This document shows, in pieces, positions 23,878 through 42,200 of a stretch of DNA of 64,000 nt. The stretch lies in assembly GCA_910575155.1 (NCBI GenBank), contig CAJTDX010000007.1, forward strand, positions 62,001 through 126,000, read 5' to 3'. The stretch comes from Lachnospiraceae bacterium (GTDB lineage Bacteria; Bacillota; Clostridia; Lachnospirales; Lachnospiraceae). Within the stretch, counting starts at the first letter, position 1; every line of letters begins with the position of its first letter. The notes under the pieces were generated by a model that was not told the DNA's origin, made no database searches, and saw only the letters and a list, made by a program, of their open reading frames with translations. The position numbers and the translations under genes are program-made.

Positions 23878-24207
23878 ATGTGGAATTATGAAAAACGATT
23901 ACAGTATCCTGTAAATATTACACAGACGAATCCTCAAATAGCGCAGGTAATCATCAGTCAGTTCGGCGGTCCTGACGGCGAGCTGTCCGCATCCATGCGC
24001 TATCTGTCTCAGCGTTACACGATTCCTTACCGGGAAGTTGCGGGATTACTGACCGATATAGGTAGAGAAGCCCCTGAAATGTTCCATCTCAAAGACCTCG
24101 CTTTTTTCGCTCTGTGTGCGGGGGAAACTTCCAGTGGATGCTTTCCCGTAAACGGTTTTACCCTGCGGGACAATTTACGCTTTTTGCATCCGTGTAGCTC
24201 CATTTAA
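23878..24207 (+). pseudogene. cotJC: 5' part of cotJC, interrupted by the 18-kb element
   Basis: The first 61 codons (MWNYEKRLQYPVNITQTNPQ to VAGLLTDI) are a normal CotJC N-terminus, with GGPDGELSASMRYLSQRY. At GGT 24061 the sequence enters the element and the frame runs through unrelated DNA (GREAPEMFHL...) to TAA at 24205. The truncated product lacks the ExxH manganese-binding motifs of this manganese-catalase-like coat protein. The missing 140 codons are found intact at 42181-42603. The two parts would rejoin in frame on excision, so the gene may be restored during sporulation; it is marked pseudogene only in its present split state. Confidence 0.92.
24041..24080. other. Left attachment junction (attL) in cotJC
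   Basis: Host sequence ...GACCGATATA meets GGTA (24061-24064) and then element sequence GAGAAGCCCC. The shared core with the right junction is GGTA. The boundary is set by where the CotJC protein pattern stops and by the matching resumption at 42181. Confidence 0.85.
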
Positions 24208-25825
24208 GGGGGAGCAGGTTCAAATACACATCAATATGTTCTTTGTCGTTTACGACCATTTTATCTAAGATTTCTTTATAAAAATCATCTTCATATTCCA
24301 CACCGTCTATAAGCTCATTCATCGCTTCTGTAATTTCAGAAACAAGCTCCTGCAGTTTGGAGAGCCTCTCCCTTTTCTGATCTACGCATTCTAAAACGGA
24401 TTGCAGTTCGTCAATCTCATTCTCACATTTTGCTCTTGCTACTGTAAATTCATCTCTGGTAATATCGCCAGATGTATAAAGGTCAATAAGGTTTGTGCGT
24501 TTTTGCAGGGTCGTTTTTATCTGTGATTTTAATTTCTCACTGTCTGTACCTGCGGGATTCATTGCCGCGTCCTTCAGGCATACCTTAGTACCATCCGGCA
24601 AATCAGCGGAAATAACAGACTTGATAATAATAAGCAAATTTTCAGTGATTTTCTTCGTATTATACTTTAAGCTCTTCGTGACAAGGTGCATGATATAGAC
24701 TGCATCTTCATTGCGTATGCTTAATCCTTTGCATCCAACTTGATTCCCTGCTTTGTCCACATGGGGACTCCCATGCCTTGCGGCTTCCAGACACCGCCAC
24801 GCCTGATAACGTTTTCCATTTTTTCGGGTTTTATACCGTGCCACATAACTTGAACCGCAGCATCCGCATTTGATTTTCCCGGAAAACGGATAGCGGTTGC
24901 TATACTTTGATTTTCCCTCCTGCGAACGTGATTTTTCGTCTAACATGCGGTTTGCCTGATCAAACAGCTCACGGGAGATAATCGGCTCGTGATGGTCTTT
25001 GATAATCACAAATTCCTCCTCTCCAAGGTTTACTTTCTTTTCATGGGATAGAAAGTCTGGCGTATAGGTTTTCTTCTGCACCAAATCACCGCAGTATTTT
25101 TCATTGCGGATAACACGGAGAATGACTGTGTTCTGCCATTCTTTTACCCGCATGGGCTGAATGCCCTCCTCCCGAAGTTCGCGGGCAATCACATGAGTTC
25201 CTTTCCCCTCATCTACAAACTTGTGGAAGATCAGACGGACAACTTTTGCCCCCTCCTCATTGATATACATTTTGCCAGCTTTCACATCGTAGCCAAGCAT
25301 ACTCCGCCCGAACACAACTCCCTGCTCCATCTGGCGTTTCTGCCCCCATTTCACACGCTCGGACGTTTTACGGCTCTCCTCCTGTGCAATCGAGGACATA
25401 ATGGCAAGACGAAGCTCCGCGTCGCTATCTAACGTGTTGATGTTATCATTCAGAAAGATAACGCCTACGCCGTGCTTCTTGAGGTCACGGGTATAGAATA
25501 TGCTGTCAAGGGTATTTCTTGCAAAACGGGAGATTTCTTTTGTTACAATCAAATCAAAATCGCCGTTTTTCGCACACGCAATCATGCGGTTAAATTCTTT
25601 CCGTTTTTTTGTGCTCGTGCCAGAGATGCCTTCATCTGCGAACACTTCATAAAGCTCCCAATCGGGATTACGCTCTATATACTGTCTGAAGTAACGCTGC
25701 TGGCTTTCAAATGAATTTGCCTGGTCTTCGTTGTCCGTGGATACGCGGCAGTAAGCGGCAACCTTTCTTTTTATGTGCTGTATTTTTCTTTCTTGATTCA
25801 GGGTTTCGTATTTATCTATCGACAT
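24158..25825 (-). CDS. Large serine recombinase/integrase
   Basis: A 555-aa site-specific recombinase. The resolvase domain carries the catalytic serine at residue 29 (AAYCRVSTDNEDQ), with DEGISGTS, KEISRFARNTLD and MSSIAQEESRKTSERVKWG. A recombinase domain (about 175-290), a zinc ribbon (IKCGCCGSSYVARY and a later Cys pair) and a C-terminal coiled coil (about 430-500) follow, the normal large serine integrase order. ATG 25825 has AAAGGAGAT upstream. The gene reads toward attL and stops 94 bp from the core. It almost certainly integrated the element and, with a directionality factor, would excise it to restore cotJC. Confidence 0.93.
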   Translation of the reverse strand: MSIDKYETLNQERKIQHIKRKVAAYCRVSTDNEDQANSFESQQRYFRQYIERNPDWELYEVFADEGISGTSTKKRKEFNRMIACAKNGDFDLIVTKEISRFARNTLDSIFYTRDLKKHGVGVIFLNDNINTLDSDAELRLAIMSSIAQEESRKTSERVKWGQKRQMEQGVVFGRSMLGYDVKAGKMYINEEGAKVVRLIFHKFVDEGKGTHVIARELREEGIQPMRVKEWQNTVILRVIRNEKYCGDLVQKKTYTPDFLSHEKKVNLGEEEFVIIKDHHEPIISRELFDQANRMLDEKSRSQEGKSKYSNRYPFSGKIKCGCCGSSYVARYKTRKNGKRYQAWRCLEAARHGSPHVDKAGNQVGCKGLSIRNEDAVYIMHLVTKSLKYNTKKITENLLIIIKSVISADLPDGTKVCLKDAAMNPAGTDSEKLKSQIKTTLQKRTNLIDLYTSGDITRDEFTVARAKCENEIDELQSVLECVDQKRERLSKLQELVSEITEAMNELIDGVEYEDDFYKEILDKMVVNDKEHIDVYLNLLPLKWSYTDAKSVNCPAG

Positions 25826-25926
25826 AAGAATATCTCCTTTCTTTGATTTTACCCATTTTTACAGGCATGAAGATTTCATTTGATTATGTAAAAACGTCAA
25901 GCGGTTATGCCTGACGTTGTTTTTTT

Positions 25927-26163
25927 CTAATATGGACGATATTGTTTTTCAAGCTCAAGCAAACAGCGTTCCCGCTGTGATGCGGTCAACAGATTCCGTT
26001 TTTCTAATGATAAAAGGATTGACCTTTGAACATTCATAAGAAATGCTGCGTGTTCCCGCTCGTTCAATTCTGGAACAGGATCGCCAGCATAAATAAATTC
26101 TCTATGTTTCAATATAGACAACACCTCCCTCATTCTCAATGTATGAGCAAATGATTGTACCAT
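25927..26163 (-). CDS. Small basic protein upstream of the recombinase
   Basis: A protein of up to 78 aa with the conserved-looking segment HREFIYAGDPVPELNEREHA, then AAFLMNVQRSILLSLEKRNLL and RERCLLELEKQY. Similar short proteins occur next to large serine recombinases in clostridial elements. The true start is uncertain: GGGAGGTG lies inside the frame, so translation may begin at a later TTG near residue 19. The position makes it a candidate recombination directionality factor or a regulator, but nothing in the sequence proves this. Confidence 0.6.
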   Translation of the reverse strand: MVQSFAHTLRMREVLSILKHREFIYAGDPVPELNEREHAAFLMNVQRSILLSLEKRNLLTASQRERCLLELEKQYRPY

Positions 26164-26287
26164 ATAACGAGGGGGCTAATCCTTTTTTTGAACACTGTCA
26201 TCATGAAGCGTACAGCGTTCATGCACAAATATTGAAGCAGATTGCAAATGACCGCTTAACTCAATGCTGATTGCCAATACATAAAAT

Positions 26288-26340
26288 AAAACAGAATCGA
26301 TAAACTGCAAAATGGAGACTTGTTCATCGACTCTGTTTTT
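26288..26340 (-). terminator. Hairpin terminator
   Basis: AAAACAGAATCGAT (26288-26301) pairs with ATCGACTCTGTTTT (26326-26339) with a single mismatch. On the minus strand it lies about 60 bp beyond the stop of the sigma-like remnant and ends in a U-rich run, so it probably closed the bacteriocin operon. Confidence 0.6.
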
Positions 26341-26397
26341 AAAAATCAATTCAATGCTTTAGTATGTATCTGCACTATCATACTTGTGGTATGTTTC

Positions 26398-26560
26398 TCA
26401 AGATGTCTGATCATATATGATTTCGCGCAGAACTTTCAGAGCCTTTGAATGAAGCAGCTTTACATAGCTGTATGAAATATCCATTAGTTCTGCGATACTT
26501 TTCAATGTTTTCCCGTTATAATAGTGCAGGATCATGATATTGCGTTCCCGCTGAGGGAGT
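26398..26560 (-). pseudogene. Sigma-70 region 4-like helix-turn-helix remnant
   Basis: The minus strand reads EQLPQRERNIMILHYYNGKT followed by LKSIAELMDISYSYVKLLHSKALKVLREII and a stop at 26398. This is a recognisable sigma region 4 helix-turn-helix. The frame has a stop just upstream and no start codon, and it is +1 relative to the overlapping peptide ORF, so it appears to be the tail of a deleted or frameshifted sigma-like gene. Confidence 0.65.
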
Positions 26561-26705
26561 TGTTCGCAGCATTCACCTGTTCCAGTTCTTCATCTGAAAG
26601 CGCCTCGCCGTAACGTTTCTCAGTTTCATCCTTCATTTCGGCAAGACGCAGATTTACCGAAAATTTCTGGAAGTCAAACAGCCGCCGTAATTCCTCTTCC
26701 ATCAT
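26532..26705 (-). CDS. Small leader-peptide-like protein coupled to the C39/radical-SAM ORF
   Basis: A 57-aa acidic protein starting ATGATGGAAGAGG at 26705, with GGAGGGCGA just upstream and overlapping the stop of the preceding ORF. Its middle (KRYGEALSDEELEQVNAAN) resembles leader peptides of RiPP precursors, which often end in LSDEELExVxGG. The double-Gly cleavage site is not present, and the last 10 residues appear to be an out-of-frame reading of the sigma-like segment. It may be a broken precursor or a decayed accessory gene. Recognition is tentative. Confidence 0.45.
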   Translation of the reverse strand: MMEEELRRLFDFQKFSVNLRLAEMKDETEKRYGEALSDEELEQVNAANNSLSGNAIS

Positions 26706-29335
26706 TCGCCCTCCATAGGCGATAAATTTTTCCAGCCCCGGAATGTTTCCTTGATTTTCCTGTGCCAGCCTTTTTGGAAAAATAGACATTTTGCGGGATC
26801 AATGCCAAATTTATCATCCGTAATCGCCAGTGCCAGCGCGCGGCAGCCACCCCCGCAGTGTTTAAAATAAGGACACACCGCGCAGGTTTCATTGTTCTCT
26901 GACAACTGCCCCAGTGTAGCGCAGACCTCGCTCAGATATCTTCCTTCCTGCAAAATTGGCTGCAATCCCTCTTTTTTAACATTGCCCAGGAAATTATTCT
27001 TCGCGCTAAAATACCCAGACATCTGCATACAAGGGTAGACATTTCCGTCTGCTGCAACCGCAACCATCCCCCGGTTCCCACGGCACACGGGCATACTGTC
27101 CCGGTACTCTCCTGCAATGTATTCAACGGGGCGCAGATGGTAAGATTCTGTTCGTGGAAACACCGTAAGAAACTGCCAGATATCTATTGTCATATTGTGT
27201 TTCTTTTTAACATATCTGTCGGCAAATTCCAACATACTTTCGTAATATTCCTCAACCTCTAAGCAGGAACCACCTGCATTTTCCTTCCAGCGCGGCGATT
27301 CTGAAGTGCGGATTACCCGCATTTCGTCCACGCCCATTTCGTCTAACATTTCCGCTGTAGGCAACATGGATTCGATATTGAGCCGATGAACGTTCGTCTG
27401 CACTTTTACACGAAAACCCTTTTCCACGCACAGGCGAATTGCCCGAAGCGCGTCCGTCTCCGCCCCCTTGCGGTTTCTGAGCCAGTCGTGATGCCCGATT
27501 CCATCAAAGGATATTTTAATCAGCGGATTACCGCCGATTTTCCGAAATTGCTCTAATGCTGTCTCGTCAAGGAAAGAACCATTCGTGTTCAGATCCTCAA
27601 GGTGCATTCCGTGTGCGTAAATACTCTCCACAATCTCAAAAAAATTCTTATGCTTTCCGTCAAATAAGATTTCGCCTTCCCAGGGCCTGTAAAGCCCTGA
27701 AATCAGCTTTGACAGTGTGGATTTCCCGCAGCCTGATGTGCCGACAAACGCCACGCGGCTGCCGGTTTTGAGCGTTAAATGAAAATCCCTGATCAGAGGC
27801 TCTGCGAGACGCGAATAGCCGAAGGTGACGTTTTTAAGTTCCACACTGCCCGATAATTTGCTATACTTTGCATCCTCTGAAATTCCATCTCTGCTGCAAT
27901 TCACATCCGTCGGGTATTCCATCACATCCTCCACACGCTCCATCTGCGTGCGCATTTCCTGGAGCGTCTGTCCCGCCGAAATCAACGTCTGCGCGGGTTC
28001 GGTAAAAGAACCTAAAAAGCCCTGAAATGCCATGATCATGCCCACTGTAAATTTCCCATCTATTGTAAAATAAACTCCGAGTATCAGCACGGCAATATTC
28101 GCCAGTGACGATACAAGCTCAGGAATCATGCCAAGATACTGATTGAGACGTTCAAAACGCACCTGCTGTGTATTCACGCTGGCCTGATAGCCCGCCCACT
28201 TCTCAAAAAATCCATTCTCTGCTCCGCTGGCCTTGATGGTTTCCACCATTTCAATCCCCGCCACGGCAGCTCCTGCGAGTTTTCCCGCATCACGCATCTG
28301 TACCCGGGTAATGTTCATGCGCTTATTGGATATAATCTTTGAGACCACAAAATTGATCACGATGGAAGCCACCCCCACCAGCGTCAGAATCGGGCTGTAG
28401 CGAAGCATCACAACAAAATAAAGCGCCAGCATGACCGTATTTAACGCCAACGGCGCGAAAGTCTCTACCAATGACTGGGCAACCGAAGCATTCATTCTCT
28501 GCCTTTGCTGAATATCCCCCGCCATACGCTGGGAGAAAAATTCCATCGGCATCCGCAGAACCTTCCACATATAATCGGCGCTTCCGACCGCCGAAAGCTG
28601 GCCGTTTATTTTCAGCGAATACACAGCTTTGATCCATTCCACAATAAGCTGTATCACGCTTATTCCTCCAAGCGCAAAAATAAACGGCAAAAACCATTCC
28701 GGATTTTCACCGGTAAGCAGCCGATCCAGGAAGATCCGTGAGAATGCCGGGGTGATAATCCCCAGCAGAGCGGTAACCAATGTTGTCAGCGCCACAAACA
28801 CGATTGCTGTTTTGGCCTCTTTCAGCCGTTTTTTCGCAAATGCCAGTATGCTTTTGGGGGCTCCGCCCGGCTCGAAGCTCTTTGCAGGCTCGAACATCAG
28901 GCAAATCCCCGTAAAGGACTTGTCAAATATTTCCATGGGCACGGAATAACTCCCTTTTGCAGGATCGTTCAGGTACGCCTTGCCGCCCTTAAAGCCGTCC
29001 AGCACTACAAAATGATTGAAATTCCAATGAATGATACAGGGAAATTTTCCATTCTCTTTTAAACTCTCCGGCTCATAGCGATAGCCTTTTGCTGCCAGCC
29101 CATAACTGCGCGCTGCTTTTAGGATGTTTTTTGCGTTGGAACCGTCACGCGATACGCCGCAGTCAGCGCGTACCTGCTCAAGCGGTATCCATTTCCGGTA
29201 ATATGCAAGGATCATCGTGAGAGAAGCCGCGCCGCACTCCAGCGCTTCCATCTGCATTACCACAGGAACTTTCACCTTACCGTTTCTGACAGGCTGCTTT
29301 ATCTTTTCGTACCCATCTTCAGACTCTCCTCTCAA
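26702..29335 (-). CDS. Chimera of C39 peptidase-ABC exporter and radical-SAM/SPASM protein
   Basis: An intact 877-aa frame joining two decayed genes. Residues 1-150 are a C39 double-Gly peptidase (Cys34 in ALECGAAS, His108, Asp124). Residues 160-450 are the six-helix exporter domain. Residues 495-557 start an ATPase (Walker A GTSGCGKST near 532-540), but after LFDGK the frame jumps into a radical-SAM protein (FFEIVESIYAHGMHLEDLNT and KISFDGIGHHDWLRNRKGAE) with a complete SPASM tail (CAVCPYFKHCGGGC). The ABC signature and Walker B are gone, as is the radical-SAM CxxxCxxC. The likely cause is a deletion inside an NHLM bacteriocin locus. The start is a TTG overlapping the upstream gene. Neither the ATPase nor the SAM chemistry should work; the peptidase might. 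Confidence 0.8.
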   Translation of the reverse strand: MRGESEDGYEKIKQPVRNGKVKVPVVMQMEALECGAASLTMILAYYRKWIPLEQVRADCGVSRDGSNAKNILKAARSYGLAAKGYRYEPESLKENGKFPCIIHWNFNHFVVLDGFKGGKAYLNDPAKGSYSVPMEIFDKSFTGICLMFEPAKSFEPGGAPKSILAFAKKRLKEAKTAIVFVALTTLVTALLGIITPAFSRIFLDRLLTGENPEWFLPFIFALGGISVIQLIVEWIKAVYSLKINGQLSAVGSADYMWKVLRMPMEFFSQRMAGDIQQRQRMNASVAQSLVETFAPLALNTVMLALYFVVMLRYSPILTLVGVASIVINFVVSKIISNKRMNITRVQMRDAGKLAGAAVAGIEMVETIKASGAENGFFEKWAGYQASVNTQQVRFERLNQYLGMIPELVSSLANIAVLILGVYFTIDGKFTVGMIMAFQGFLGSFTEPAQTLISAGQTLQEMRTQMERVEDVMEYPTDVNCSRDGISEDAKYSKLSGSVELKNVTFGYSRLAEPLIRDFHLTLKTGSRVAFVGTSGCGKSTLSKLISGLYRPWEGEILFDGKHKNFFEIVESIYAHGMHLEDLNTNGSFLDETALEQFRKIGGNPLIKISFDGIGHHDWLRNRKGAETDALRAIRLCVEKGFRVKVQTNVHRLNIESMLPTAEMLDEMGVDEMRVIRTSESPRWKENAGGSCLEVEEYYESMLEFADRYVKKKHNMTIDIWQFLTVFPRTESYHLRPVEYIAGEYRDSMPVCRGNRGMVAVAADGNVYPCMQMSGYFSAKNNFLGNVKKEGLQPILQEGRYLSEVCATLGQLSENNETCAVCPYFKHCGGGCRALALAITDDKFGIDPAKCLFFQKGWHRKIKETFRGWKNLSPMEGE

Positions 29336-29814
29336 TTCAGTATAAACGACATCGGCGATACGCTTTCTGTAACGATTTCCGTCTTGTATGTACCGTCTGG
29401 AAGATCCACATCTGCAATGATCTCATACATCCACGCACCCTCGGAAAAACCTCCGAGATACATCAAATAGGGATCCATATCTGCGTTTACGGAGACCGGC
29501 CTTTCGGCAATTTCAGAAACAGCGAAATCATTCCCGTTTACCTTTACCAGCATTCCCGTTTTCATCTTAGCAGCGTCTTCCTCCGTAACATAACAGATAA
29601 AAATGCCGTTTTCGCTCGTCCCTGCAGAAAGGACCTTGCTTTCAAGACGCCCGAAAATCCCCCAGACGCATACCCCCGCCAGCAAAACAACAACCGCCGC
29701 CAGCATCATCCATACGCTCGGATTGGATACGCGGATATAATCATTTAACTGCTCGGGAGAAGAAACGCGGTCAATACTTGATTTCCGAAAAATTTGCTTT
29801 TCATTATACTTCAT
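29332..29814 (-). CDS. NHLM bacteriocin system secretion (membrane-fusion-like) protein
   Basis: A 160-aa protein with the N-terminal pattern IFRKSSIDRVSSPEQLNDYI seen in NHLM-type bacteriocin secretion proteins, one transmembrane helix (MMLAAVVVLLAGVCVWGIF, about 36-55) and a short extracytoplasmic beta domain. It is shorter than typical HlyD-like partners and lacks the long coiled coil. GAGAGG precedes ATG 29814. The stop overlaps the start of the C39/radical-SAM chimera, its expected partner. It would have guided peptide export across the envelope. Confidence 0.75.
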   Translation of the reverse strand: MKYNEKQIFRKSSIDRVSSPEQLNDYIRVSNPSVWMMLAAVVVLLAGVCVWGIFGRLESKVLSAGTSENGIFICYVTEEDAAKMKTGMLVKVNGNDFAVSEIAERPVSVNADMDPYLMYLGGFSEGAWMYEIIADVDLPDGTYKTEIVTESVSPMSFILN

Positions 29815-29923
29815 GTCAACCTCTCAACCTCCAATTTTTAATATTTTAATACAATAATTAAGCATTTTACATCAAACTGCAAAAAAAGCAGCCTAAATGC
29901 CAAAAATGTCATTTCTAAAATAA

Positions 29924-29941
29924 CAGTCAATAAATTGACTG
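29924..29941. promoter_or_regulatory. 18-bp palindromic operator upstream of the marR remnant
   Basis: CAGTCAAT-AA-ATTGACTG is a perfect palindrome, followed by another AATTGACT half-site at about 29948-29955. A GGAGGCG ribosome site at about 29960 follows but leads to no start codon. This fits a MarR-type operator left in front of a deleted regulator start. Confidence 0.55.
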
Positions 29942-30164
29942 TACTGTAATTGACTTTACAGGAGGCGACAGATCTAACAACTAATACATCGTTCGACAAA
30001 TAACTGGATCAATCACGCAGAATGCTTTTCTGAGTGTGCAGGTCAAAAAACGCAGGCGCAGCGGGCTGCGCTGAGGATTTTTCACCTGTGCAATCGGGAA
30101 AGCAGGCAAGTGGTTGGTGTAGTTATTTGCGCAACGATGTACTAGAGCGTGTTTGTATTGCAAA

Positions 30165-30393
30165 TTTCGGGATGAACAGCTTGCGTTATACGATGAATAC
30201 GCCAAACGCCACGGAAATTTGCCAACGCACCTTTCAGTCTAAACAGACTGTCAATCTGATTATACGGAATCTTTTAAACGAGGAGTATGTAACTGTTGAA
30301 GAACGGAAAGAAAATAAACGAGAGAAGATTGATCTCTCACGGACATTTACAAAAAATCTGACAGAACTTATCCATCAGGAAACGGAGGATTGA
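30165..30393 (+). pseudogene. MarR-family regulator remnant
   Basis: Two out-of-frame pieces are visible: FRDEQLALYDEYAKRHGN from 30165, and NATEICQRTFQSKQTVNLIIRNLLNEEYVT... from about 30207 to the stop at 30391-30393. Together they are the middle and recognition-helix part of a MarR winged helix. The N-terminus and a segment between the pieces are missing. A palindromic operator lies 230 bp upstream. Confidence 0.75.
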
Positions 30394-30396
30394 ATA

Positions 30397-30560
30397 ATGG
30401 AATTTTACGAAGCAATTAACAAGCAGAAAGGATATCCTGCTCAATGCATATACCGCTGAATAAAGAGCAGGATATAGTTAAGAAAAAACCGAAAGCGCCG
30501 CCAACCTATATGATCCCCGTATTTATCGGTATTGGTTACGCAAATCCCAAAGAACTGCAA
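30397..30560 (+). pseudogene. Nitroreductase-family remnant
   Basis: It begins MEFYEAINKQKGY at 30397, 3 bp after the marR remnant, and shifts frame near 30445 into PLNKEQDIVKKKPKAPPTY followed by MIPVFIGIGYANPKE. The start matches nitroreductase N-termini, and the second piece matches the C-terminal IPVFIGIGY region. About 100 codons in between, including the FMN-binding core, have been deleted. marR-nitroreductase pairs are common, so this was probably a regulated flavoenzyme operon. Confidence 0.65.
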
Positions 30561-30588
30561 TTAGTGTGCCCACGCCTGCTCACATTTA

Positions 30589-31104
30589 CTAATCCTCAGT
30601 TGCTATATTCGATATTTCATCCGATGCTGTATCCTGTTCCGCATCAGTAAAAGGCATATCATTATTGGTATCTTGCTTTGAATTTTGATTTGGCGCTTTT
30701 GTTGGCTTAGAAATTTCCAAACTCATAGTGGTTTCCATTCCTCCGACGCTCATTGTCATTACAAGCACCCGTGAACCATCCGGCTTAACAACAATCTCAT
30801 ATACCGGAACTGCCTCCACAGAATTGGCATCCTTAATTTTATACGGCTCTCTTTCGATTGGCAAATCCTGTGACGCAGATCTCTCTTTCCCAGAATACAC
30901 ACCCATACCATAAATACTGGCTGCATTTCCGCTCACATAATTATCCCGTCCGCAAACAGCCGTTGTCTTCCCGCTGCCTGCAGAATCATTTCTGTTAACC
31001 ATACCTGCAATTCGATTAGCAAAATCCTCTCCTGAATTATTTCTCCGTGATTTTCCTGTTTCTCTCCATGCAGGACAGCCTGTTCCAATTCCACTAATAC
31101 TCAT
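30589..31104 (-). CDS. Conserved hypothetical protein
   Basis: A 171-aa protein beginning MSISGIGTGCPAWRETGKSR behind GGAGG. The N-terminal third is polar and probably disordered. A compact region follows (IKDANSVEAVPVYEIVVKPDGSRVLVMT, about 95-130) and the tail is acidic. There is no signal peptide or membrane helix. The reading frame stays open upstream to about 31300 (SGSKSVSAGSNLIRRYNYVG), a coding-like stretch without a start, so the gene may have lost or fused to an upstream neighbour. Function unknown. Confidence 0.6.
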   Translation of the reverse strand: MSISGIGTGCPAWRETGKSRRNNSGEDFANRIAGMVNRNDSAGSGKTTAVCGRDNYVSGNAASIYGMGVYSGKERSASQDLPIEREPYKIKDANSVEAVPVYEIVVKPDGSRVLVMTMSVGGMETTMSLEISKPTKAPNQNSKQDTNNDMPFTDAEQDTASDEISNIATED

Positions 31105-31355
31105 TTTCAAATCCTCCATTGTTATCAATATTTTACTGACAATTTTTCGTCGTTCAGAACCGCCTTTACCTCCGTTCAGGGTCTGTTTGCTTCCAACATA
31201 GTTATAACGTCTGATAAGATTGCTGCCTGCGCTTACAGACTTGCTCCCGGAGTTTCTTCGCCGTTTCTTTTCACTTTTTATATCGGCAGAAATTTTGTAT
31301 AGTAAGCCTCATAAGTCAAAAATTTTTCACTTTTCGTCCGATCTAAGAGCAAATG
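31105..31355. other. Gap with coding-like upstream extension
   Basis: The minus-strand frame upstream of the hypothetical gene stays open to about 31300 and reads SGSKSVSAGSNLIRRYNYVG then SKQTLNGGKGGSERRK. No start codon with a ribosome site is visible. It is probably the remnant of an adjacent gene. Confidence 0.35.
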
Positions 31356-31535
31356 TCACGCAAGGCGGCACATAGAAAACCAGAGGAAATAGATACTTCC
31401 GTAAAAGCATATTACCTCTGGTTTGCCGCTTTCCAATTTCATATTTTCTAAATCAATATGAATAAATTCAAAGTCTTCGTAATCAGCCAGAATGACTGGA
31501 TTGCAGGAAAATTCAAATGATACGGAGGAATTGTA
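31356..31535 (-). pseudogene. Coding-like remnant directly after the ABC permease stop
   Basis: Immediately after the permease TGA the same frame continues for 59 codons (VSFEFSCNPVILADYEDFEF, IHIDLENMKLE, VICFYGSIYFLWFSM) to TGA at 31356. The composition is protein-like but no start codon or ribosome site precedes it. A nested hairpin (GCGGC / GCCGC outside AAACCAGAGG / CCTCTGGTTT, 31366-31429) lies inside. It may be a decayed small gene. Function not recognised. Confidence 0.35.
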
Positions 31536-32276
31536 TCAATCTTTTTCATATCCATTTCTTCGATAAAGTATTAAAAATACAAGAACGCTGATAATCAATT
31601 CTCCGATAAGCACCGCGAGATCCAGAGGTTTTAACGTATATGACATTCCCTCTGCAAATCCACTTGCCATCTCTGTCAACACCCCGGTAAACAAAAATCC
31701 TGAGATATGGTGCAATTTTTCGGAAAGATTTCCAAACATTGGAATCATCATAAATACGATCATCAATGGATAAGAAATCAAATTTGCATTCATCTGATTT
31801 TTGGCGCAGAGACCGACAATCATTCCCATTACACAACTAATCAGAGAGGCTGCCGCACTGACCAGTAAGAAAGCCGCAACAGATACCTGGCTCATAGAAA
31901 TACCACTAATCACCAATACCACAATATTGATTATATTCATCAACACAAATGGAAATAGAATACTTCCGATAAAATACTGCATTCCAGTGACTGATGACGT
32001 CATTAAGACCCGTAACGTATGTTTCTCTTTCTCTTCTGCAATGGCAGTTCCTACCATTAAGAATCCATCCATACACAAATTAAGAGATATTCCCAAACTC
32101 AGGATCAAAGACACCAGCATTGGTGATAAATCACCTCCTGAATTGATGCTATATAAAATTTTGAACATCCATACCATCGCCACAGTCAGAAGCGGCCCGA
32201 TCATAATCGCTGTATTGCGGCTGATACAAATCCATTTAATCTGTGCAACTGCTGTTAATTTATTGATATTATCCAT
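31536..32276 (-). CDS. ABC-2 type transporter permease
   Basis: A 246-aa membrane protein with about six transmembrane helices and the ABC-2 coupling segment AEEKEKHTLRVLMTSSVTGM. It has no large extracellular domain. It lies 13 bp after the ATPase gene and must form one exporter with it. In this setting, followed upstream by a LytTR regulator and a GHKL kinase, such exporters usually handle peptides or confer peptide-antibiotic tolerance; the substrate is not evident. Confidence 0.85.
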   Translation of the reverse strand: MDNINKLTAVAQIKWICISRNTAIMIGPLLTVAMVWMFKILYSINSGGDLSPMLVSLILSLGISLNLCMDGFLMVGTAIAEEKEKHTLRVLMTSSVTGMQYFIGSILFPFVLMNIINIVVLVISGISMSQVSVAAFLLVSAAASLISCVMGMIVGLCAKNQMNANLISYPLMIVFMMIPMFGNLSEKLHHISGFLFTGVLTEMASGFAEGMSYTLKPLDLAVLIGELIISVLVFLILYRRNGYEKD

Positions 32277-32289
32277 CTTAAAACTCCTC

Positions 32290-33156
32290 TCACATACTTG
32301 CTAATCCAAGGGATGCCCCTGTTACTTGTAAAAATACACGTTCCAATGTTGGTTCACAAGAATGAATACACTGTATTTCATCTCTCTGCATCCATTCTGA
32401 AATTTTTGCAATATTTTGAGGACTTTGCTCTAAGACGACTTCTTCCTGATTATTCAAAAGCAGACGATATTTTTTATTTTGATTATATTTCAGGCAAAGT
32501 TCTTTGGGCGAGCCGCACTCGACAATTTTCCCCTGATACAAAAGTGCAACTCTATCACAAAGTTTTGTGGCTTCTTCCATATTATGCGTAGTCAAAAAAA
32601 TTGACATACCTTCTTCTTTCAGTCCCAACAACATTTTATGAATAGATACCGCAGTCGATGGATCTAATCCGCTCGTCGGCTCATCAAGAAATAAAATTCT
32701 TGGCTTATGAAGCACTGCCCTGGCCAAAACAAGTCTTTGCGTCTGCCCTCTGGAAAGTTTACCTGCCGGCTTTTTACGATGTTCATACAATTCCACCTGA
32801 TGTAAGACTTCCTCCACTCTTGCACTGGGAACACGCCATATTTTTGCAAACATAATTAAATTCTGCCATACTGTCATTTTCTCATAAATTCCGCTCTGAT
32901 CAGAAACCACGCCAATTTTTTCATAAATTGATTCATCAATATTAACTGTATCTGTATCAAGAATTTTCGCCTCTCCGGATGTTTGCCTTAACTGTCCTGT
33001 GATTATTTTAATCGTGGTAGTTTTTCCAGCGCCCGACGGCCCTAAAAATCCAAGAATTTCGCCTTTATGAAGCGTAATATTGATATCCTTAAGCGCCAAT
33101 TCCGTCTTATAGCGCTTAGAAATATGTGATAAATCCAGTAATACACTTTGTTCCAT
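32290..33156 (-). CDS. ABC transporter ATP-binding protein
   Basis: A 288-aa ATPase with Walker A GPSGAGKTT, signature LSRGQTQR, Walker B ILFLDEPTSGLD and TTHNMEE. The C-terminal 65 residues form an extra regulatory-type domain common in bacteriocin-resistance ATPases of the BcrA type. ATG 33156 follows AGAGGGTT. It is the first gene of the ATPase-permease pair and lies downstream of the two-component genes on the same strand, separated by about 150 bp. Confidence 0.88.
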   Translation of the reverse strand: MEQSVLLDLSHISKRYKTELALKDINITLHKGEILGFLGPSGAGKTTTIKIITGQLRQTSGEAKILDTDTVNIDESIYEKIGVVSDQSGIYEKMTVWQNLIMFAKIWRVPSARVEEVLHQVELYEHRKKPAGKLSRGQTQRLVLARAVLHKPRILFLDEPTSGLDPSTAVSIHKMLLGLKEEGMSIFLTTHNMEEATKLCDRVALLYQGKIVECGSPKELCLKYNQNKKYRLLLNNQEEVVLEQSPQNIAKISEWMQRDEIQCIHSCEPTLERVFLQVTGASLGLASM

Positions 33157-33309
33157 AACATAACCCTCTTTCTAAATATTTTCTTTATAATTGCCCTGTT
33201 TTTCCAGCAATTATGATGGAAGTATCGTATCATGTTTTATCACCTTTTTGCTGAGTTCTGCCTGAATGATATACCATACTGCCTGAAATAGCCCGTGAAA
33301 CGCTGTCAT

Positions 33310-34044
33310 CTAAATTCTACTCAGCAACTCCCCCTTCATGCTTTTTGAAAACAGACATTTTTCTCCGTTATCCATAAGAATTTCCCGATGCTTTAAATCT
33401 AACTCCTGAATCTTATTTACATTGACCAGATACGACCTGTGAACCCTTAAAAAATGCTCCCTAAACTGCTCTTGCAGCTCCTGTATGCTGCCAATAAAAT
33501 CAATACAGTCATTCTTCGCATGAAGTTCTATTCTGTGTGTACGGGCACCTGTCTCAAAGAACATAATTTCATCCACTGGAACATGCTTGACAATATCCAG
33601 CACCTTTACTGTAAAGTATTCCTTTTGCTCTCCTTGCTCCTTACACATCCGCTCCGTAATGACCGCAAGGTTTTTGTACATTCCAGACAGCATTTTTTCA
33701 GAATCGCCCTTTACTATATAATCCAGCGCTTCCAGGTGATAGCGAAATGTCTCAAATGCCAGATCTGGAAAGGAAGTCACATAGATCAGAAAACCTCTGG
33801 TATCAAACTTACGAATCTGTTGTCCCAGCATAAATCCATCCATCGGCTCATCCTTAAGCTCCACATCCAGAAAATAAATTCCTCTCTTTGGATTCGCTGC
33901 CACCGCTTCAATAATTTCCCGGGGATGCCTGCTGCACAGAGCAATCTGCATATCATAACCTTGCATCATAATTTGTTTTTCTAAAAACGCTCTCTGCGCA
34001 GCGAGTATCATCGCATCATCTTCACAAATATAAATTGGAAGCAT
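33310..34044 (-). CDS. LytTR-family response regulator (AgrA-like)
   Basis: A 244-aa regulator with an N-terminal receiver (acidic pocket CEDD near residues 7-10, phospho-Asp60 in YFLDVEL) and a C-terminal LytTR DNA-binding domain (HRIELHAKNDCIDFIGSIQE, then FLRVHRSYLVNVNKI). ATG 34044 follows GGAGG; the longer frame starts with a TTG lacking a site. It ends 31 bp before the kinase gene start region in operon order and would control the adjacent ABC exporter. Confidence 0.9.
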   Translation of the reverse strand: MLPIYICEDDAMILAAQRAFLEKQIMMQGYDMQIALCSRHPREIIEAVAANPKRGIYFLDVELKDEPMDGFMLGQQIRKFDTRGFLIYVTSFPDLAFETFRYHLEALDYIVKGDSEKMLSGMYKNLAVITERMCKEQGEQKEYFTVKVLDIVKHVPVDEIMFFETGARTHRIELHAKNDCIDFIGSIQELQEQFREHFLRVHRSYLVNVNKIQELDLKHREILMDNGEKCLFSKSMKGELLSRI

Positions 34045-34074
34045 ATTTCTTTCCTCCACAATTTTTAACACTTC

Positions 34075-35451
34075 TTATTCCTGTATCTTTAACTCCTGAA
34101 TAAAATAACCATCCCTGATTGTTGTCAGAGAGAAGACATTTTCATAATGTTGTAAAATACTTTTATAACTTGCAAGTCCAATTCCTCTGTCCGCTCCTCT
34201 GGTAGAATAACCCTGCTGCCAAATTTTGTGAAAATCAATGTTTGAATACAATGAATTTCTTACCTGAAATGTTGTGCATTCTTCCTGGCTGCTAATCATA
34301 ATATGGATCTGCGGTTTTGGCTTCTTACCTTTTTTTCCCTGTACTTCATCAATAGCATTGTCAATCAGTATCCCCAGGCATCTGCACAAGTCAGTCGTTC
34401 TCAGCCGCGTTCTATCAAATGGACGCAATACTTCCAGTTCACAGGAAATCTGCTCCTGCTGCATTTTCTCCATTTTCCCCAACAGTAGCCCTTTTACCTC
34501 AAGCATATGAATATTTCCAAGCTGTGTCAATCTGCGTATCTGTTCCCCCACCTGAAAATCAAAATCACTTGTCATATCCTGGATAAAATTCTGCACTGCT
34601 TCCATATTTCCCTCTTTTGCCTGAAGGTACATGCCAGACATCATATTTTTATAATCATGACGGAATCTTCGCATTTCACTCTGCAGTTTTTCCAAACTCT
34701 CAATATAAGCATTTTGCTGCTGCATACTAATCTGCTGCGTCTGAATTTGCTTCTTTTGCATTTCCTGACGCCCTGCATAACCGAAAATAATAAAAACAAT
34801 CAGTAGATATAACAGAGAAACGACTGCATTATCGTCGCCAACCCGTTCTCCTATTTGTACCGTAAAATAAAGTATTTCAGACAAAATTGGGTATAAACTG
34901 ATAAAAATAATACTTACCTTTTTCGATTCTTTCCGTTCAATCCACAGTCGGAACATTTTCCCAACTCCAGTTTTATACAGAAACAGCACCCAGAGGATCT
35001 CTATAAGAGGTGTTAATAAATACAGAAAAAAATAATATATTAACCGTTCTCCCAAAATATCCAGATGAAAAGTCATATTAGGTGAAAATAAAACTCCTAT
35101 GTGTACCGCAAAAGATTCCAGCATTTCTAAAAAAACAGCCGAAATCCAACAAACCAGCAGATTTTCCCGATAGAGAAAATATAAATAAAACATTGCTCCT
35201 GTCATTCCCATATAGGTAAACAAGATTTGTCCTGCATTATACCTCCATCTAAAGATACCCACTTTATAAAAAACTGTCCCTATCAATGCCCAGACACAGA
35301 TAAATAATATCGTAAAAGCAATCATTTTCACTTTGCGCTCTCTTATTTGATACGGTTTTCGCTCCAAAAGTAACATAGAGATCCAGACCATAAACAGCAC
35401 ACTGATTGTCAAACCAAGGGTATTACCGCAGAAAAGGCCCCAAAAACTCAT
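34075..35451 (-). CDS. GHKL-type sensor histidine kinase (AgrC-like)
   Basis: A 458-aa kinase with six or seven N-terminal transmembrane helices (residues 1-225), a short coiled linker, the phospho-acceptor motif FRHDYKN (His near 265), an N box DNAIDE (near 367) and RGIGLASYK (near 425). This matches AgrC-type peptide sensors. The start follows AGAGGATT. No AgrD-like prepeptide or AgrB protease is visible nearby, so the ligand probably comes from elsewhere, such as a bacteriocin. Confidence 0.9.
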   Translation of the reverse strand: MSFWGLFCGNTLGLTISVLFMVWISMLLLERKPYQIRERKVKMIAFTILFICVWALIGTVFYKVGIFRWRYNAGQILFTYMGMTGAMFYLYFLYRENLLVCWISAVFLEMLESFAVHIGVLFSPNMTFHLDILGERLIYYFFLYLLTPLIEILWVLFLYKTGVGKMFRLWIERKESKKVSIIFISLYPILSEILYFTVQIGERVGDDNAVVSLLYLLIVFIIFGYAGRQEMQKKQIQTQQISMQQQNAYIESLEKLQSEMRRFRHDYKNMMSGMYLQAKEGNMEAVQNFIQDMTSDFDFQVGEQIRRLTQLGNIHMLEVKGLLLGKMEKMQQEQISCELEVLRPFDRTRLRTTDLCRCLGILIDNAIDEVQGKKGKKPKPQIHIMISSQEECTTFQVRNSLYSNIDFHKIWQQGYSTRGADRGIGLASYKSILQHYENVFSLTTIRDGYFIQELKIQE

Positions 35452-36145: not shown

Positions 36146-36436
36146 CTAAAGGTAATCCCTCCCGACACGACTCATATCCTTTACTATGACTGTGCTGATG
36201 TCTCCTTTTTCAATTCGGTTTAACATCTGCTTCCATCCCGGACGGTCAAAATTCCCGCCCAAAAATCCGTCATCCGTAAAATGCTCCGTATTGGTGTACC
36301 CGTTGCTTTCTGCATAGTCTTCCAGCATTTTCTTCTGGTTGACTATGCTGTCGCTGTCTCCCGCAAGCCCATCGTCCCTTGAGAGTCGCTTGTAAAGAGC
36401 TGTTATTCTGTTGTCACCAGCCGTCCTGTTGTTCAT
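36146..36436 (-). pseudogene. Truncated serine recombinase (TnpX-like N-terminus)
   Basis: 96 residues of a resolvase domain: ITALYKRLSRDDGLAGDSDS, then IVNQKKMLEDYAESNGY, DDGFLGGNFDRPGW and VIVKDMSRVGRDYL, where it stops. The catalytic-serine motif (YKRLSRDD) is present, but most of the catalytic domain and all of the DNA-binding part are absent. AAAGGAG precedes the ATG. It differs clearly from the recombinase at the left end, so it marks a second mobile element inside or before this one. Confidence 0.8.
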
Positions 36437-36614
36437 TCCGAACTCCTTTCCAGCGGCTGGCTCATCTGTGGTGAATCCATCATATCACAATTTCCGCCTC
36501 CTGTCAGCATCTCATTACATATTAAGGGGATGGTCTGTGACTGACCATGAAGGCATTGCGATTACAATGGCTATGGGGAATACGCCGCAGGCTGTGACGA
36601 TGTAATTACAGAAA

Positions 36615-37028: not shown

Positions 37029-37069
37029 AAATGCTTGCGGCACTTTGGAGATTGTGGTATATTAAACAT

Positions 37070-38990: not shown

Positions 38991-39029
38991 ATTCATCCAA
39001 ATAACGGTAAAAACATTAATGCTCTGGTT

Positions 39030-39479: not shown

Positions 39480-39504
39480 TATCTATTTCCTCCAGTTTTT
39501 ACAT

Positions 39505-40071
39505 TCAACGATCAAACAGCGAACCTGTACAACTGTGTACAGCGCCGTCATCTTCTGTATATGTTGAGATAAAGCGGGGTTCACGCTTTGCGCAATGATA
39601 AAACCGCAGCAAGAGATCTGCAACACCTGCTTTTTTCTCAATTCCTAAACGATCTGCTAATTCCTGTTGCGCCTGGGGCAGATTAAACGCAATCTCCTCA
39701 GCATGTTCCATATGTTCCTCAAAGACTTCTTTTGCATACGCTTCAAGACTTTCCCTGTCCTGATACGCTCCTTCTTCTAGGTAATCCAGCCAATAGGGAC
39801 AGTTTACCACAAATTCAAAAAACTCTTCCAGATTATCCGCAATTCTGCCGCATTGACCTTCGCTTCCCCAAAAACCGATTGAGCCGTCTTCCAATAATAT
39901 GTACTCGTCTCCGGAACCTGCTCCTGCAAATGTTTTTCCGCAAAGATTATAGACCAAATGTCCGCATTCATCCTGGGGGCGCTTAAATTCCGGGAAAATT
40001 TCTATGTCGCAGACGTCGCATAGCAAGTCTGATAAATCATGATCCTCACGCAGCATCTTAATAAAATCCAT
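39505..40071 (-). CDS. Putative SUKH-like immunity protein
   Basis: A 188-aa acidic soluble protein. The segment YILLEDGSIGFWGSEGQCGR followed by IADNLEEFFEFVVNCPYWLD recalls SMI1/KNR4 (SUKH) immunity folds, where a strand-rich core is followed by a helix monitoring dedicated toxins. The C-terminus (about 120-188) is helical and unassigned. It sits in the same orientation as Imm51 and the split gene, forming an immunity array without a visible toxin. The family call is tentative. Confidence 0.5.
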   Translation of the reverse strand: MDFIKMLREDHDLSDLLCDVCDIEIFPEFKRPQDECGHLVYNLCGKTFAGAGSGDEYILLEDGSIGFWGSEGQCGRIADNLEEFFEFVVNCPYWLDYLEEGAYQDRESLEAYAKEVFEEHMEHAEEIAFNLPQAQQELADRLGIEKKAGVADLLLRFYHCAKREPRFISTYTEDDGAVHSCTGSLFDR

Positions 40072-40105
40072 TTCACAGCGCCTCCATTGAACATCGCTCT
40101 TCTCA

Positions 40106-40459
40106 TTAGTCTGGTTCAGCCCGGCTGAATAACTCAGATATCAGGGCTTGATCCTCACAGGCTTTCTTAAAATGACGGATAAAATCTGCCAGAGCTTCCG
40201 CATCTCCTGAATAGGCGCAGAACATATCCGCTTCCGGGTCAAAGCTGATCTTTCCCTGCTGTTTTGGAAGCCTTTCATCTAAAAATACCTGTGCCAGACG
40301 TTCCCAGTCATAGCCGCTGCCTATAAATCCCTCGTCTGCGCGGGCATCAAAAATATCCTGCAGATACCCGCCTGCATTCAAACAAACAGATGCTCCGGAT
40401 TTTTGCTCCACCCAGAAAAACGGAGCGATTTCGTTTTCAAACTCTTTTGTGACTGCCAT
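40106..40459 (-). CDS. Immunity protein 51 (Imm51) family
   Basis: A 117-aa protein with the Imm51 pattern: PFFWVEQKSGASVCLNAGGY, FIGSGYDWERLAQVFLDERL, ISFDPEADMFCAYSGDAEAL and a helical end DFIRHFKKACED. Imm51 proteins neutralise toxins of contact- or secretion-dependent polymorphic systems. ATG 40459 follows GGAGGG. No toxin gene is near, so this is an orphan immunity gene that may protect against neighbours. Confidence 0.75.
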   Translation of the reverse strand: MAVTKEFENEIAPFFWVEQKSGASVCLNAGGYLQDIFDARADEGFIGSGYDWERLAQVFLDERLPKQQGKISFDPEADMFCAYSGDAEALADFIRHFKKACEDQALISELFSRAEPD

Positions 40460-40474
40460 TTTCATTCCCTCCAA

Positions 40475-40866
40475 TGCTTCTCTATTTCAATCCATAGCAA
40501 ACCGGAAAAAATCAACCTGTCTCTGAAACATGTCTGAAAAATTATTCCCGGCGTCTGTATACCTCACTTTACGTGATTTTTATGTCCCGCACGGTCAACG
40601 CAGCCCGAAATGCAGGATTGATGCTGCCGTCTGTGTTTCTTTGTACTCCGGTTTACTGCTGTGTTAAGTTTAGCACATTCACATACTGTCTGCAAGATAG
40701 CCATACATTCATTTAAAAATAACTTCTCAGTTGCTGCAATTGCCCCTTTCTTTCAAATAAACGCTACATCCGCCAGCAGATCAGGCAGCGTAATTTTCCT
40801 GAACCGCTGGTACCCAGAACAGCATACGCCTTCATATGCAGTTTGGGGTTCTTTATATTCTTTGAC
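40475..40866. other. Gap with a possible P-loop ATPase remnant
   Basis: About 390 bp without an intact gene. On the minus strand, 40835 downward reads MKAYAVLGTSGSGK and then only continues sensibly (TLPDLLADV) after a frameshift, suggesting the relic of an ATPase start. The remainder shows nothing recognisable. Confidence 0.3.
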
Positions 40867-41163
40867 TTATAAATGCCCGCTTTGACCTAATGTACTGACC
40901 ACATTATTTTTTACATCTTCTATGGAATTGGAAAATCCACGAAGCAGGAAATCAACATCTATCGTTGCCCGGCTTTCAAAATTGGTAAGCGTATAGATAA
41001 ACAATCCACCTTTCAGAATAAGATTGTCTTCATAACCAGATTTTGAAAGTTTCCGCAAAAATTCCTCCTGCATAAACAGTTGCAAACACTGTTGATAACT
41101 GATTCCAGAAATCTTAGCTTTGTTTTTCAATTTCGCAAGAACGGATGCCGCCTTATCTGTCAT
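40867..41163 (-). pseudogene. Truncated AbiEii-type nucleotidyltransferase toxin
   Basis: A 98-aa N-terminal piece of an AbiEii/AbiGii-type nucleotidyltransferase (family length roughly 250-300 aa). It contains NLILKGGLFIYTLTNFESRA then TIDVDFLL, the G-G and DxD nucleotidyltransferase motifs, and stops soon after. The C-terminal two thirds are missing. It overlaps the antitoxin stop by TAATG, the usual coupled AbiE layout. It is probably inactive. Confidence 0.8.
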
Positions 41164-41771
41164 TACAACCACACTCCAATCAAATCCTTTACACGCTTTA
41201 GCACCCGCAAAGTCTTTGCGTACTGCATAAGATTCGGAATATTTTTTTTCTGGTCTTTTACATAGCCTTGTATCGCCTTATTAAAAATCTCTTTATCCAT
41301 CTTATTCATATTCCTCAGCACATCGCAAATGGTACGGTCACGGTCATAAATATGAACTTCCTGGAAGTCAATTTCCCCTTTTGTTTTTCCAATGGAAAGC
41401 AACTCTGGCTCAACCCGATAAGCCTTAATAAAAGGATAATCTATATTTGTACGCTTTCTGGAAGTATTTTTGTTTATGGTAATATTCCATTCAGCGGGAT
41501 TCCTGTCACTGTATCTATAATAGAAAAGAGCTGTTTCCATACAAAGAACTGCATCAGGGAACAGGCGGTTGACAATAACCACCTCACTCGCACCATAGTC
41601 ATCCACCCAATGGTAACAGCCCCTTTTTATTCTTTCAATCAATCCTTGTTCCAGCATACGTTGAATATCTCTATAAAACAATTTTTCATTTGTAAGCTGT
41701 GCCGTTGTCATGACATAGCCATAATCAGAAAATATTTTGCTTAGTATTCTTATATCGTTTTGTGTTAGCAT
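41163..41771 (-). CDS. AbiEi-family antitoxin/transcriptional regulator
   Basis: A 202-aa antitoxin of a type IV toxin-antitoxin pair. The N-terminal winged helix (RILSKIFSDYGYVMTTAQLT, then DIQRMLEQGLIERIKRGCYH) binds the promoter. The C-terminal domain (VHIYDRDRTICDVLRNMNKM) is the antitoxin part. AGAGGTGA lies 5 bp before ATG 41771. The gene is intact although its toxin is truncated. It should still autorepress through the two 19-bp repeats upstream. Confidence 0.85.
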   Translation of the reverse strand: MLTQNDIRILSKIFSDYGYVMTTAQLTNEKLFYRDIQRMLEQGLIERIKRGCYHWVDDYGASEVVIVNRLFPDAVLCMETALFYYRYSDRNPAEWNITINKNTSRKRTNIDYPFIKAYRVEPELLSIGKTKGEIDFQEVHIYDRDRTICDVLRNMNKMDKEIFNKAIQGYVKDQKKNIPNLMQYAKTLRVLKRVKDLIGVWL

Positions 41772-41812
41772 TATTTCACCTCTGCACTAAAATACACATA
41801 AATTTTTAATCG

Positions 41813-41909
41813 CTTGTGTGCTTTACTACATTATATCTATTCAGTGCAAAAAATTCAAGCGAATCAAATCGAACAACTTCAAATCTTATACTTGTGTGCT
41901 TTACTACAT
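41813..41909 (-). promoter_or_regulatory. abiEi promoter with paired 19-bp operator repeats
   Basis: On the minus strand TTGAAT (41853-41858) and TATAAT (41830-41835) are 17 bp apart. The 19-bp sequence CTTGTGTGCTTTACTACAT occurs perfectly at 41813-41831, over the transcription start, and at 41891-41909, upstream of the -35 box. AbiEi-type antitoxins are known to bind repeats in their own promoter, so these are the likely sites. Confidence 0.7.
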
Positions 41910-42180
41910 AAAATCAGACCTACTTGTCCACAATAAAACAAATAGGTCTGACACAATTTAACCTGCTATATCAAATCTCGTTGAAGCAATGCCATATATA
42001 ATTATCGTTCTTTCCATCCCTCCAACCTCGATAGAATAAGGCTTCCCAACATTCCATGCCTCCTCATTTTCATCATACTTCTTTATCCTCTCAAACGTCA
42101 AAAAACTATGTATCGGAAAGCCTGCCTGTATCATGCCCGTCCCAAAATACAGTAAGTGGAACATTACCGCTGCTTCTCTG
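41910..42180 (-). other. Right end of the cotJC element
   Basis: A minus-strand frame from the right junction to 41958 reads MIQAGFPIHSFLTFERIKKY, then SIEVGGMERTIIIYGIASTRFDI. It has no start codon inside the element; the frame opens into host cotJC, or in the circular form into the left end. It is probably the tail of a gene cut by the junction or a decayed one. Function not recognised. Confidence 0.35.
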
Positions 42181-42200
42181 GGTACAGAAGAACTGGCGCA
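42165..42200. other. Right attachment junction (attR) in cotJC
   Basis: Element sequence GCTTCTCTG meets GGTA (42181-42184), then host CAGAAGAACTGGCGC. Joined to the left end in a circle, the site would read GCTTCTCTGGGTAGAGAAGC, a perfect 8-bp inverted repeat around GGGT, as expected for a serine recombinase attP. Confidence 0.85.

Follow-up and report, generated by a model that had tools for sequence, protein, structure and literature searches.

A 64,000-nucleotide stretch of the genome of a Lachnospiraceae bacterium (GenBank assembly GCA_910575155.1, contig CAJTDX010000007.1, positions 62,001 to 126,000), hereafter called the window, carries the sporulation gene cotJC in two pieces, which are separated by a mobile element of 18,120 bp. 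A sequence-only reading of the window had claimed that an 18.1-kb serine-recombinase element splits cotJC, that the letters GGTA are shared by both borders, that codons 1-61 and 62-201 would rejoin in frame, and that the element may be excised in the mother cell during sporulation, by analogy with the skin element and the prophage SP-beta. cotJC is a mother-cell gene; the names cotJA and cotJB for its neighbours are taken from the gene order. The following features of the window carry the argument.

23329..23614, plus strand: open reading frame (ORF) taken to be cotJA, at the head of the cotJABC operon
23611..23877, plus strand: ORF taken to be cotJB
23878..24060, plus strand: cotJC 5′ half, codons 1-61, matching positions 1-70 of the Pfam Mn_catalase profile
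24061..24085, plus strand: left element end (attL), with the likely crossover dinucleotide GG and the P′ arm, GGTAGAGAAGCCCCTGAAATGTTCC, kept across genomes, P/P′ symmetry 19/24
24158..25825, minus strand: large serine recombinase of 555 amino acids with Resolvase, Recombinase and Zn-ribbon domains (Pfam), with homologues near cotJC halves
25927..26112, minus strand: small protein of 61 amino acids from the likely TTG start at 26112 (longest ORF to 26163), conserved next to the recombinase
26138..26165, minus strand: sigma-E-like promoter of the small gene by pattern match, with ATAT in the -35 region, a -10 element CATACATT at 26145-26138 and a SpoIIID-like GGTACAATC at 26161-26153
42157..42182, plus strand: right element end (attR), with the P arm TGGAACATTACCGCTGCTTCTCTG and the likely crossover GG, kept across genomes, with arm symmetry
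42181..42603, plus strand: cotJC 3′ half, codons 62-201, matching positions 60-197 of the Pfam Mn_catalase profile

Past position 24060 the frame of the 5′ half enters foreign DNA and runs into a stop at 24207, giving a truncated product of 109 amino acids, and joining 24060 to 42181 yields an open in-frame CotJC of 201 amino acids that reads ...LLTDIGTEELAHMEM... across the join. The GGTA at 24061-24064 and at 42181-42184 was borne out to the base, and so were the size and borders of the insert, the rejoining of the two sets of codons and a serine recombinase just inside the left end, which lies on the minus strand with its stop codon 97 bp inside. Nor are the two halves unrelated paralogues: both lie on one contig, they match successive parts of the Mn_catalase profile and are therefore parts of one protein, and no other Mn-catalase match was found in the bacterium's own genome (4.19 Mb, 148 contigs). 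Upon alignment to the solved Mn catalase 1jku, E35 falls in the 5′ half and E65, H68, E136 and H169 fall in the 3′ half; these residues are presumably the Mn ligands, and their division between the halves suggests that an active enzyme should require both. Upstream of cotJA, a sigma-K-like ACC..CATATTCTA was matched at about 23265-23291, and 12 of the 23 genus genomes with enough sequence carry the same pattern, which was applied without a control in both cases. The insertion thus lies inside the protein-coding part of a sporulation gene of the mother cell, and its precise removal restores the frame.

Comparison with relatives, a check proposed along with the sequence-only reading, revealed that the break is recurrent. 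Among 29 genomes of the genus, where halves on separate contigs were paired by inference, cotJC is intact in seven (G001, G002, G005, G009, G014, G015, G019) and split at codon 62 in 16, with both halves recovered in 13, only the 5′ half in G011 and G016, and only the 3′ half in G021. Another element splits the gene a few codons past 62 in two genomes (G008, G023), the split lies only near codon 174 in two more (G007, G028), and cotJC was not found in 2 of the 29 (G017, G024). G004 and G006 bear two insertions in one cotJC, at codon 62 and at about codon 174, and G011 has a second 5′ half (73% identical) adjoining a 48% identical recombinase. CotJC of G014 is 99% identical to that of the window, its gene is uninterrupted, and the window flanks match G014 on both sides. 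About 16.4 kb past its intact cotJC, G014 also keeps an old right end and behind it what was once a 3′ half, of which about 33 codons are left (L101 4039-4644, L102 858-1160), in this one case the fossil of a past insertion, shrunk beside the intact gene. In G002, a homologue of the window recombinase lies in two pieces about 64 kb apart (C12:670907-671755, 735415-736293), on a contig other than that of cotJC.

Beyond the genus set, named genome contigs were scanned with a recombinase alignment, and the best 80 of 540 relatives were kept, some of them being genus genomes. A cotJC half is located no more than 150 bp from the recombinase in 66 of the 80 loci (the 5′ half in 63, the 3′ half in 3), and 64 of these 66 have GG at codon 62; among the other 14 loci, a cotJC piece lies farther off in the locus in ten and is lacking in four. 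Among distant recombinases of about 44-52% identity (L042-L049), a cotJC piece is present in the short flanks of six of eight, and at 33-45% identity (L050-L062) none of the 13 has one in flanks of up to 1.5 kb. In a sample of the family, 189 of 298 genomes match CotJC, and among the matches listed there are further cotJC pieces starting near codons 19-29 or ending near 178. The same element ends were found in independent genomes of other genera.

The ends themselves point to the type of recombination. GG stands at both ends in all 26 genomes or loci taken with both halves, all 26 of which retain an open frame in the cotJC 5′ half, and the two bases after GG differ between the ends in seven of them; this makes GG the most likely dinucleotide for the crossover, so that of the GGTA shared in the window both copies stand, while the crossover itself is narrowed to GG. 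The inferred attachment site of the element (attP) is a 48-bp imperfect palindrome centred on GG, with arms matching at 19 of 24 positions in the window (about 6 in shuffles) and at 17.0 of 24 on average over the 26 cases, compared with an average of only 4.9 of 20 for the host arms. At L126, two tandem elements border each other in a natural P.P′ junction, a copy of attP; at L199, the 3′ half is shortened and the left end is not att-like. Because the same break and the same ends recur in other genomes and the attP arms match far above the shuffles, the split is not due to chance. The three predicted domains, the short shared crossover and the symmetric attP place the enzyme with the large serine recombinases, and the protein encoded at 24158..25825 would be the integrase of the codon-62 site.

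A conserved small gene accompanies the recombinase on the same strand, at most 400 bp upstream, in 66 of the 80 named loci; for the other 14, less than 150 bp of upstream sequence is available in seven, the small gene lies elsewhere in the locus in four, and it is missing from three. It was detected in 13 of the 29 genus genomes, 12 times beside the codon-62 recombinase type (in G004 beside a fragment) and once as a weak match (G007), and these genomes carry many other recombinases besides the type linked to it. At L136, a recombinase relative (86%) has the left-end motif and no cotJC in the locus, and the small gene there is without the usual promoter block. The small protein matches no Pfam or NCBIfam family; 39 sequences were aligned, and a ratio of nonsynonymous to synonymous polymorphism (pN/pS) of 0.23 over 17 of them indicates that the gene is under purifying selection. 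It is probably a recombination directionality factor (RDF), and we treat it as the candidate for this role.

The region upstream of the small gene holds the block GTTATATGGTACAATCATTNGCTCATACATTGAG. A sigma-E-like pattern fixed before the regions were viewed matched 43 of 83 regions versus 2.5 expected, and a tightened form matched 42 of 70 distinct upstreams versus 23 of 1306 controls, with a mean of 0.8 and a maximum of 3 of 70 in shuffles; the controls were upstreams of mechanically listed ORFs, and the 70 upstreams are related, so that the counts are not independent. The SpoIIID-like core, a pattern picked after the sequences had been viewed, occurs in 52 of the 70 versus 94 of the 1306, and both together in 44 versus 6. 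Consensus logos for these motifs are mentioned in the text sections of PMC517825, with the strings not spelled out there. The sole sigma-70-like match on the small-gene strand (26139-26111) overlaps the start codon and therefore cannot drive the gene, and no sigma-K-type promoter was found upstream of the recombinase in any of the 83 regions. All 29 genus genomes have a sigma-E gene above cut-off, and spoIIID was found in all 29. We infer that the conserved promoter-like block is read by sigma-E and SpoIIID. One further feature overlaps it.

26123..26176, minus strand: inverted repeat CCCTCGTT/AATGAGGG, by folding (z -1.36)

As many as 17 of 200 shuffles fold as well as the inverted repeat of the window, and a hairpin is seen in many of 45 folds among 67 upstreams; it could conceivably hide a ribosome-binding site in read-through RNA.

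Elements with other integrases also reside in cotJC, at sites that are distinct from codon 62.

Codon ~30 site: L127 and L146, large serine recombinases of 500-502 amino acids
Codon ~66 site: L088-L091, large serine recombinases of 540-545 amino acids (L088, L090)
Codon ~174 site: L092, L097-L100 and L103, large serine recombinases of 501-502 amino acids (L092, L098, L100, L103)

All four of the eight other-site recombinases that were scanned have the Resolvase, Recombinase and Zn-ribbon Pfam domains, and identities are 22-30% between the four cotJC sites versus 41-97% within a site. The codon-174 recombinases have a conserved small gene of their own upstream (ending ...RLYQIFKKYA; L092 5230-6735, L098 12998-14506, L100 8407-9915), which is possibly another directionality factor. 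A second sporulation gene is hit as well. spoIIID, the gene of a mother-cell regulator, is interrupted around codons 41-49 in seven genus genomes out of 29 (G002, G003, G005, G012, G015, G021, G024) and whole in 22; at the split loci (L216-L223, L225, L226) another large serine recombinase, 32-34% identical to that of the window, lies within about 100 bp of the 3′ half in five genomes and about 2.4 kb away in G012 and G015, and ACAT is common to both ends of the junctions in 7/7 and TACAT in 6/7.

The recurrence of the split, the linkage to the recombinase and the sigma-E-like promoter of the candidate RDF together argue that developmental excision in the mother cell is the best explanation of the split cotJC, and we consider this account as a whole probable; the suggestion drawn earlier from skin and SP-beta is supported by the recurrence and by the sigma-E-like promoter and SpoIIID-like core of the small gene. 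According to this account, the 18.1-kb element would have been integrated by its own large serine recombinase at the GG in codon 62 of cotJC, as a member of a widespread family whose integrase appears to be specialised for this codon. When the cell sporulates, the small gene would be turned on in the mother cell by sigma-E together with SpoIIID, and the small protein, acting as the RDF, would turn the recombinase from integration to excision. Recombination of attL with attR would then release the 18,120 bp and rejoin cotJC in time for transcription of cotJABC of the sigma-K type, while the forespore would retain the element, which the lineage would therefore not lose. Since the mother cell is terminal, excision there gives the element no means of spreading; what it may plausibly gain is a healthy spore in which it is still present.

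Several observations weigh against this account. Many of the insertions are recent, as 27 pairs among 60 loci have recombinases at least 98% identical in DNA and cotJC 5′ halves of only 57-73% identity, and the same contrast is seen between G003 and G012 (99.4% against 79-80%). The pN/pS values are low in both halves of split genes (n = 13; 0.025 for the 5′ half and 0.053 for the 3′ half, compared with 0.025 and 0.066 in seven intact ones); taking them as proof of repair was dropped, since in young insertions the constraint would largely predate the insertion. Of the 16 codon-62 genomes, no more than seven (G000, G003, G010, G012, G013, G025, G026) have a whole recombinase right next to the 5′ half. 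The recombinase of G011 carries an in-frame stop, that of G004 is missing its N-terminus, that of G006 is 27.6 kb distant, and those of G018 and G020 are broken by contig ends; in G027, it is fragmentary beside the gene, with another copy elsewhere bearing one in-frame stop, and none turned up in G016, G021 or G022, where the cotJC halves end at contig edges. A pattern search for the excised or circular junction, using a pattern that matches both the arms in the window and the border of the tandem elements at L126, gave no hit in the 29 genus genomes or in the viral_contigs collection. The sigma-E-like pattern is missing from 28 of the 70 upstreams, among them a subclade and many upstreams of more distant members, and the stricter SpoIIID form occurs in only 8 of the 70 versus 52 of the 1306 controls. 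None of the eight other-site integrases has a sigma-E-like motif upstream, so for these it is only the location that speaks for developmental excision. Lastly, loss of CotJC has been reported to cause no apparent defect in Bacillus subtilis (PMC12122855), so selection for repair may be weak.

The most serious alternative is an ordinary site-specific insertion of an integrative and conjugative or integrative and mobilizable element, which would take as its attB a conserved part of a gene that the cell can spare and knock out cotJC with no programmed repair. It draws on the reportedly mild effect of CotJC loss in B. subtilis, on the several recombinases that are damaged or away from the gene, and on horizontal movement, since near-identical recombinases in divergent hosts indicate that the family moves between hosts. 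The elements span 2,958 to 11,997 bp at 14 loci with both halves, and larger inserts of about 33 kb with a relaxase (G003) and about 80 kb with a relaxase, a TraG/VirD4 coupling protein and a VirB4-like protein (G025) occur, the latter containing a second right-end arm, which suggests that it may be composite. The G025 element also encodes an elongation-factor-G-like protein resembling a tetracycline ribosomal-protection gene (L083 14759-16678). What such an insertion leaves unexplained is the conserved sigma-E/SpoIIID-like block on a recombinase-linked small gene, the convergence of four integrase types of 22-30% identity on four sites in one sporulation gene, and the insertion in spoIIID, and we therefore judge it unlikely.

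Far less probable is that excision is tied to transfer or stress in growing cells, with the repair of cotJC being incidental. One member with conjugation genes would fit this, and so would the yin element of Clostridium botulinum, for which growth-phase-dependent integrated and excised subpopulations are described (PMC10747680); yet no sigma-70-like match is placed to drive the small gene, and the cell in which sigma-E and SpoIIID are active is the mother cell (PMC517825, PMC5025042), where excision cannot aid transfer. An artefact, either misassembly in a draft of 148 contigs or a pairing of unrelated paralogous fragments, can be practically dismissed, as the halves share one contig and are consecutive parts of the only Mn-catalase match in the genome, and the same ends recur in independent genomes of other genera. 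Mother-cell excision of the window element remains the account that we infer.

Inside the window element, the remaining ORFs are mainly cargo.

26702..35451, minus strand: peptide/bacteriocin-type genes, partly decayed (Pfam, NCBIfam)
36146..36436, minus strand: remnant of a second serine recombinase, 96 amino acids (Pfam Resolvase)
40106..41771, minus strand: Imm51 immunity protein, AbiEii-like piece and AbiEi-like antitoxin (24.9 bits, cut-off 25) (Pfam)

The first group comprises a C39-peptidase ABC exporter fused to a radical-SAM/SPASM part, an ABC-2 transporter, an Agr-like pair of LytTR regulator and GHKL kinase, and an NHLM-type HlyD-like piece that scores below its cut-off. The fusion is a single frame of 877 amino acids (26702-29335, minus strand) that joins the exporter to the maturase part, apparently through an in-frame deletion inside a peptide-biosynthesis cluster. 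Neither phage nor conjugation genes were recognised among the part of the window ORFs that was scanned with Pfam and NCBIfam, and a phage or plasmid origin of the recombinase is not indicated, its matches in the phage and plasmid collections all being below 60% identity. Among the IMG/VR contigs, 6 of the 13 recombinase-relative loci carry cotJC pieces (L203, L205-L207, L209, L210), and some cotJC elements have therefore been filed as viruses.

In a wider sense, we lean slightly towards regarding cotJC as a dedicated landing place of mobile elements in Clostridia of the gut, where four distant integrase types would have settled on about codons 30, 62, 66 and 174 and a further type in spoIIID, with the codon-62 family being mobile between genera, partly by conjugation, and bringing its own sigma-E/SpoIIID-driven excision factor. 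If this is true, the doomed mother cell would be cured while the spore keeps the element, amounting to a portable, host-compatible module for developmental excision. In the literature examined, the elements known to be excised during sporulation appear as isolated cases from hosts of Bacillus, Geobacillus or Clostridium type; here the arrangement recurs in many Lachnospiraceae and other Clostridia, with named carriers such as Dorea sp. 5-2 (L123) and Lachnospiraceae bacterium COE1 (L129), both of which have a full-length recombinase, with elements down to 3 kb, and with a protein of about 61 amino acids as the candidate for an excision factor under sporulation control. Whether mobile elements evolve obedience to host development, with a gene interrupted in the germ line and whole in the soma, thereby becomes a testable question. 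For annotation, caution is advised as well, because some such bacteria may appear deficient in cotJC or spoIIID without being so.

Among known systems, the skin element of Clostridioides difficile is the closest precedent. There, CD1231 alone integrates and requires CD1234, a protein of 72 amino acids under sigma-E and SpoIIID, for excising skin from sigK in the mother cell (PMC5025042), so that both systems have a large serine recombinase beside one end, a small RDF or a candidate for it, and a mother-cell gene to be rejoined. The target is sigK there and cotJC here, where the arrangement is met again in many genera and the element moves horizontally; CD1234 and the small protein of the window are alike in arrangement, the latter being without a recognised family. 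The C. difficile prophage phi027 was set aside as a precedent for a split cotJC, since the source places it beside a cotJC homologue and describes no split there. Like the window element, gin in gerE of Bacillus cereus (GirC/GirX) is a non-phage element with imperfect inverted-repeat att sites, a recombinase and an RDF-like factor in a mother-cell gene; it differs in gene and host, and its route of movement is given as unknown, whereas one member of the cotJC elements has conjugation genes (PMC5595907). SP-beta in spsM of B. subtilis (SprA/SprB) likewise combines a serine recombinase with a precise join in a late mother-cell gene (PMC4191935), but is an active phage, in contrast to the window element with its recombinase less than 60% identical to the phage collection and no phage gene in the ORFs scanned. 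The elements vfbin (spoVFB), vrin (spoVR) and yin (yabG) also intervene in sporulation genes (PMC4191935, PMC10747680), although in other genes and hosts, and yin is stated to have gone undetected in further strains and species (PMC10747680), whereas the cotJC element recurs across families. Convergence of large serine recombinase families on one conserved gene, as at the prolyl isomerase site (PMC10083194), resembles the gathering of integrases at cotJC; no developmental control is described in the passages considered, and the main text contains 'sporulation' once, in a reference title, and 'catalase' never. No description of an interrupted cotJC or spoIIID was recognised among the titles and abstract openings of the open-access literature. 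By its split, join and recombinase, the window element would be classed with the sporulation gene-intervening elements of the skin/SP-beta/gin type, and it differs from them in its target gene, its spread, its horizontal mobility and the sharing of its target with distant integrase types.

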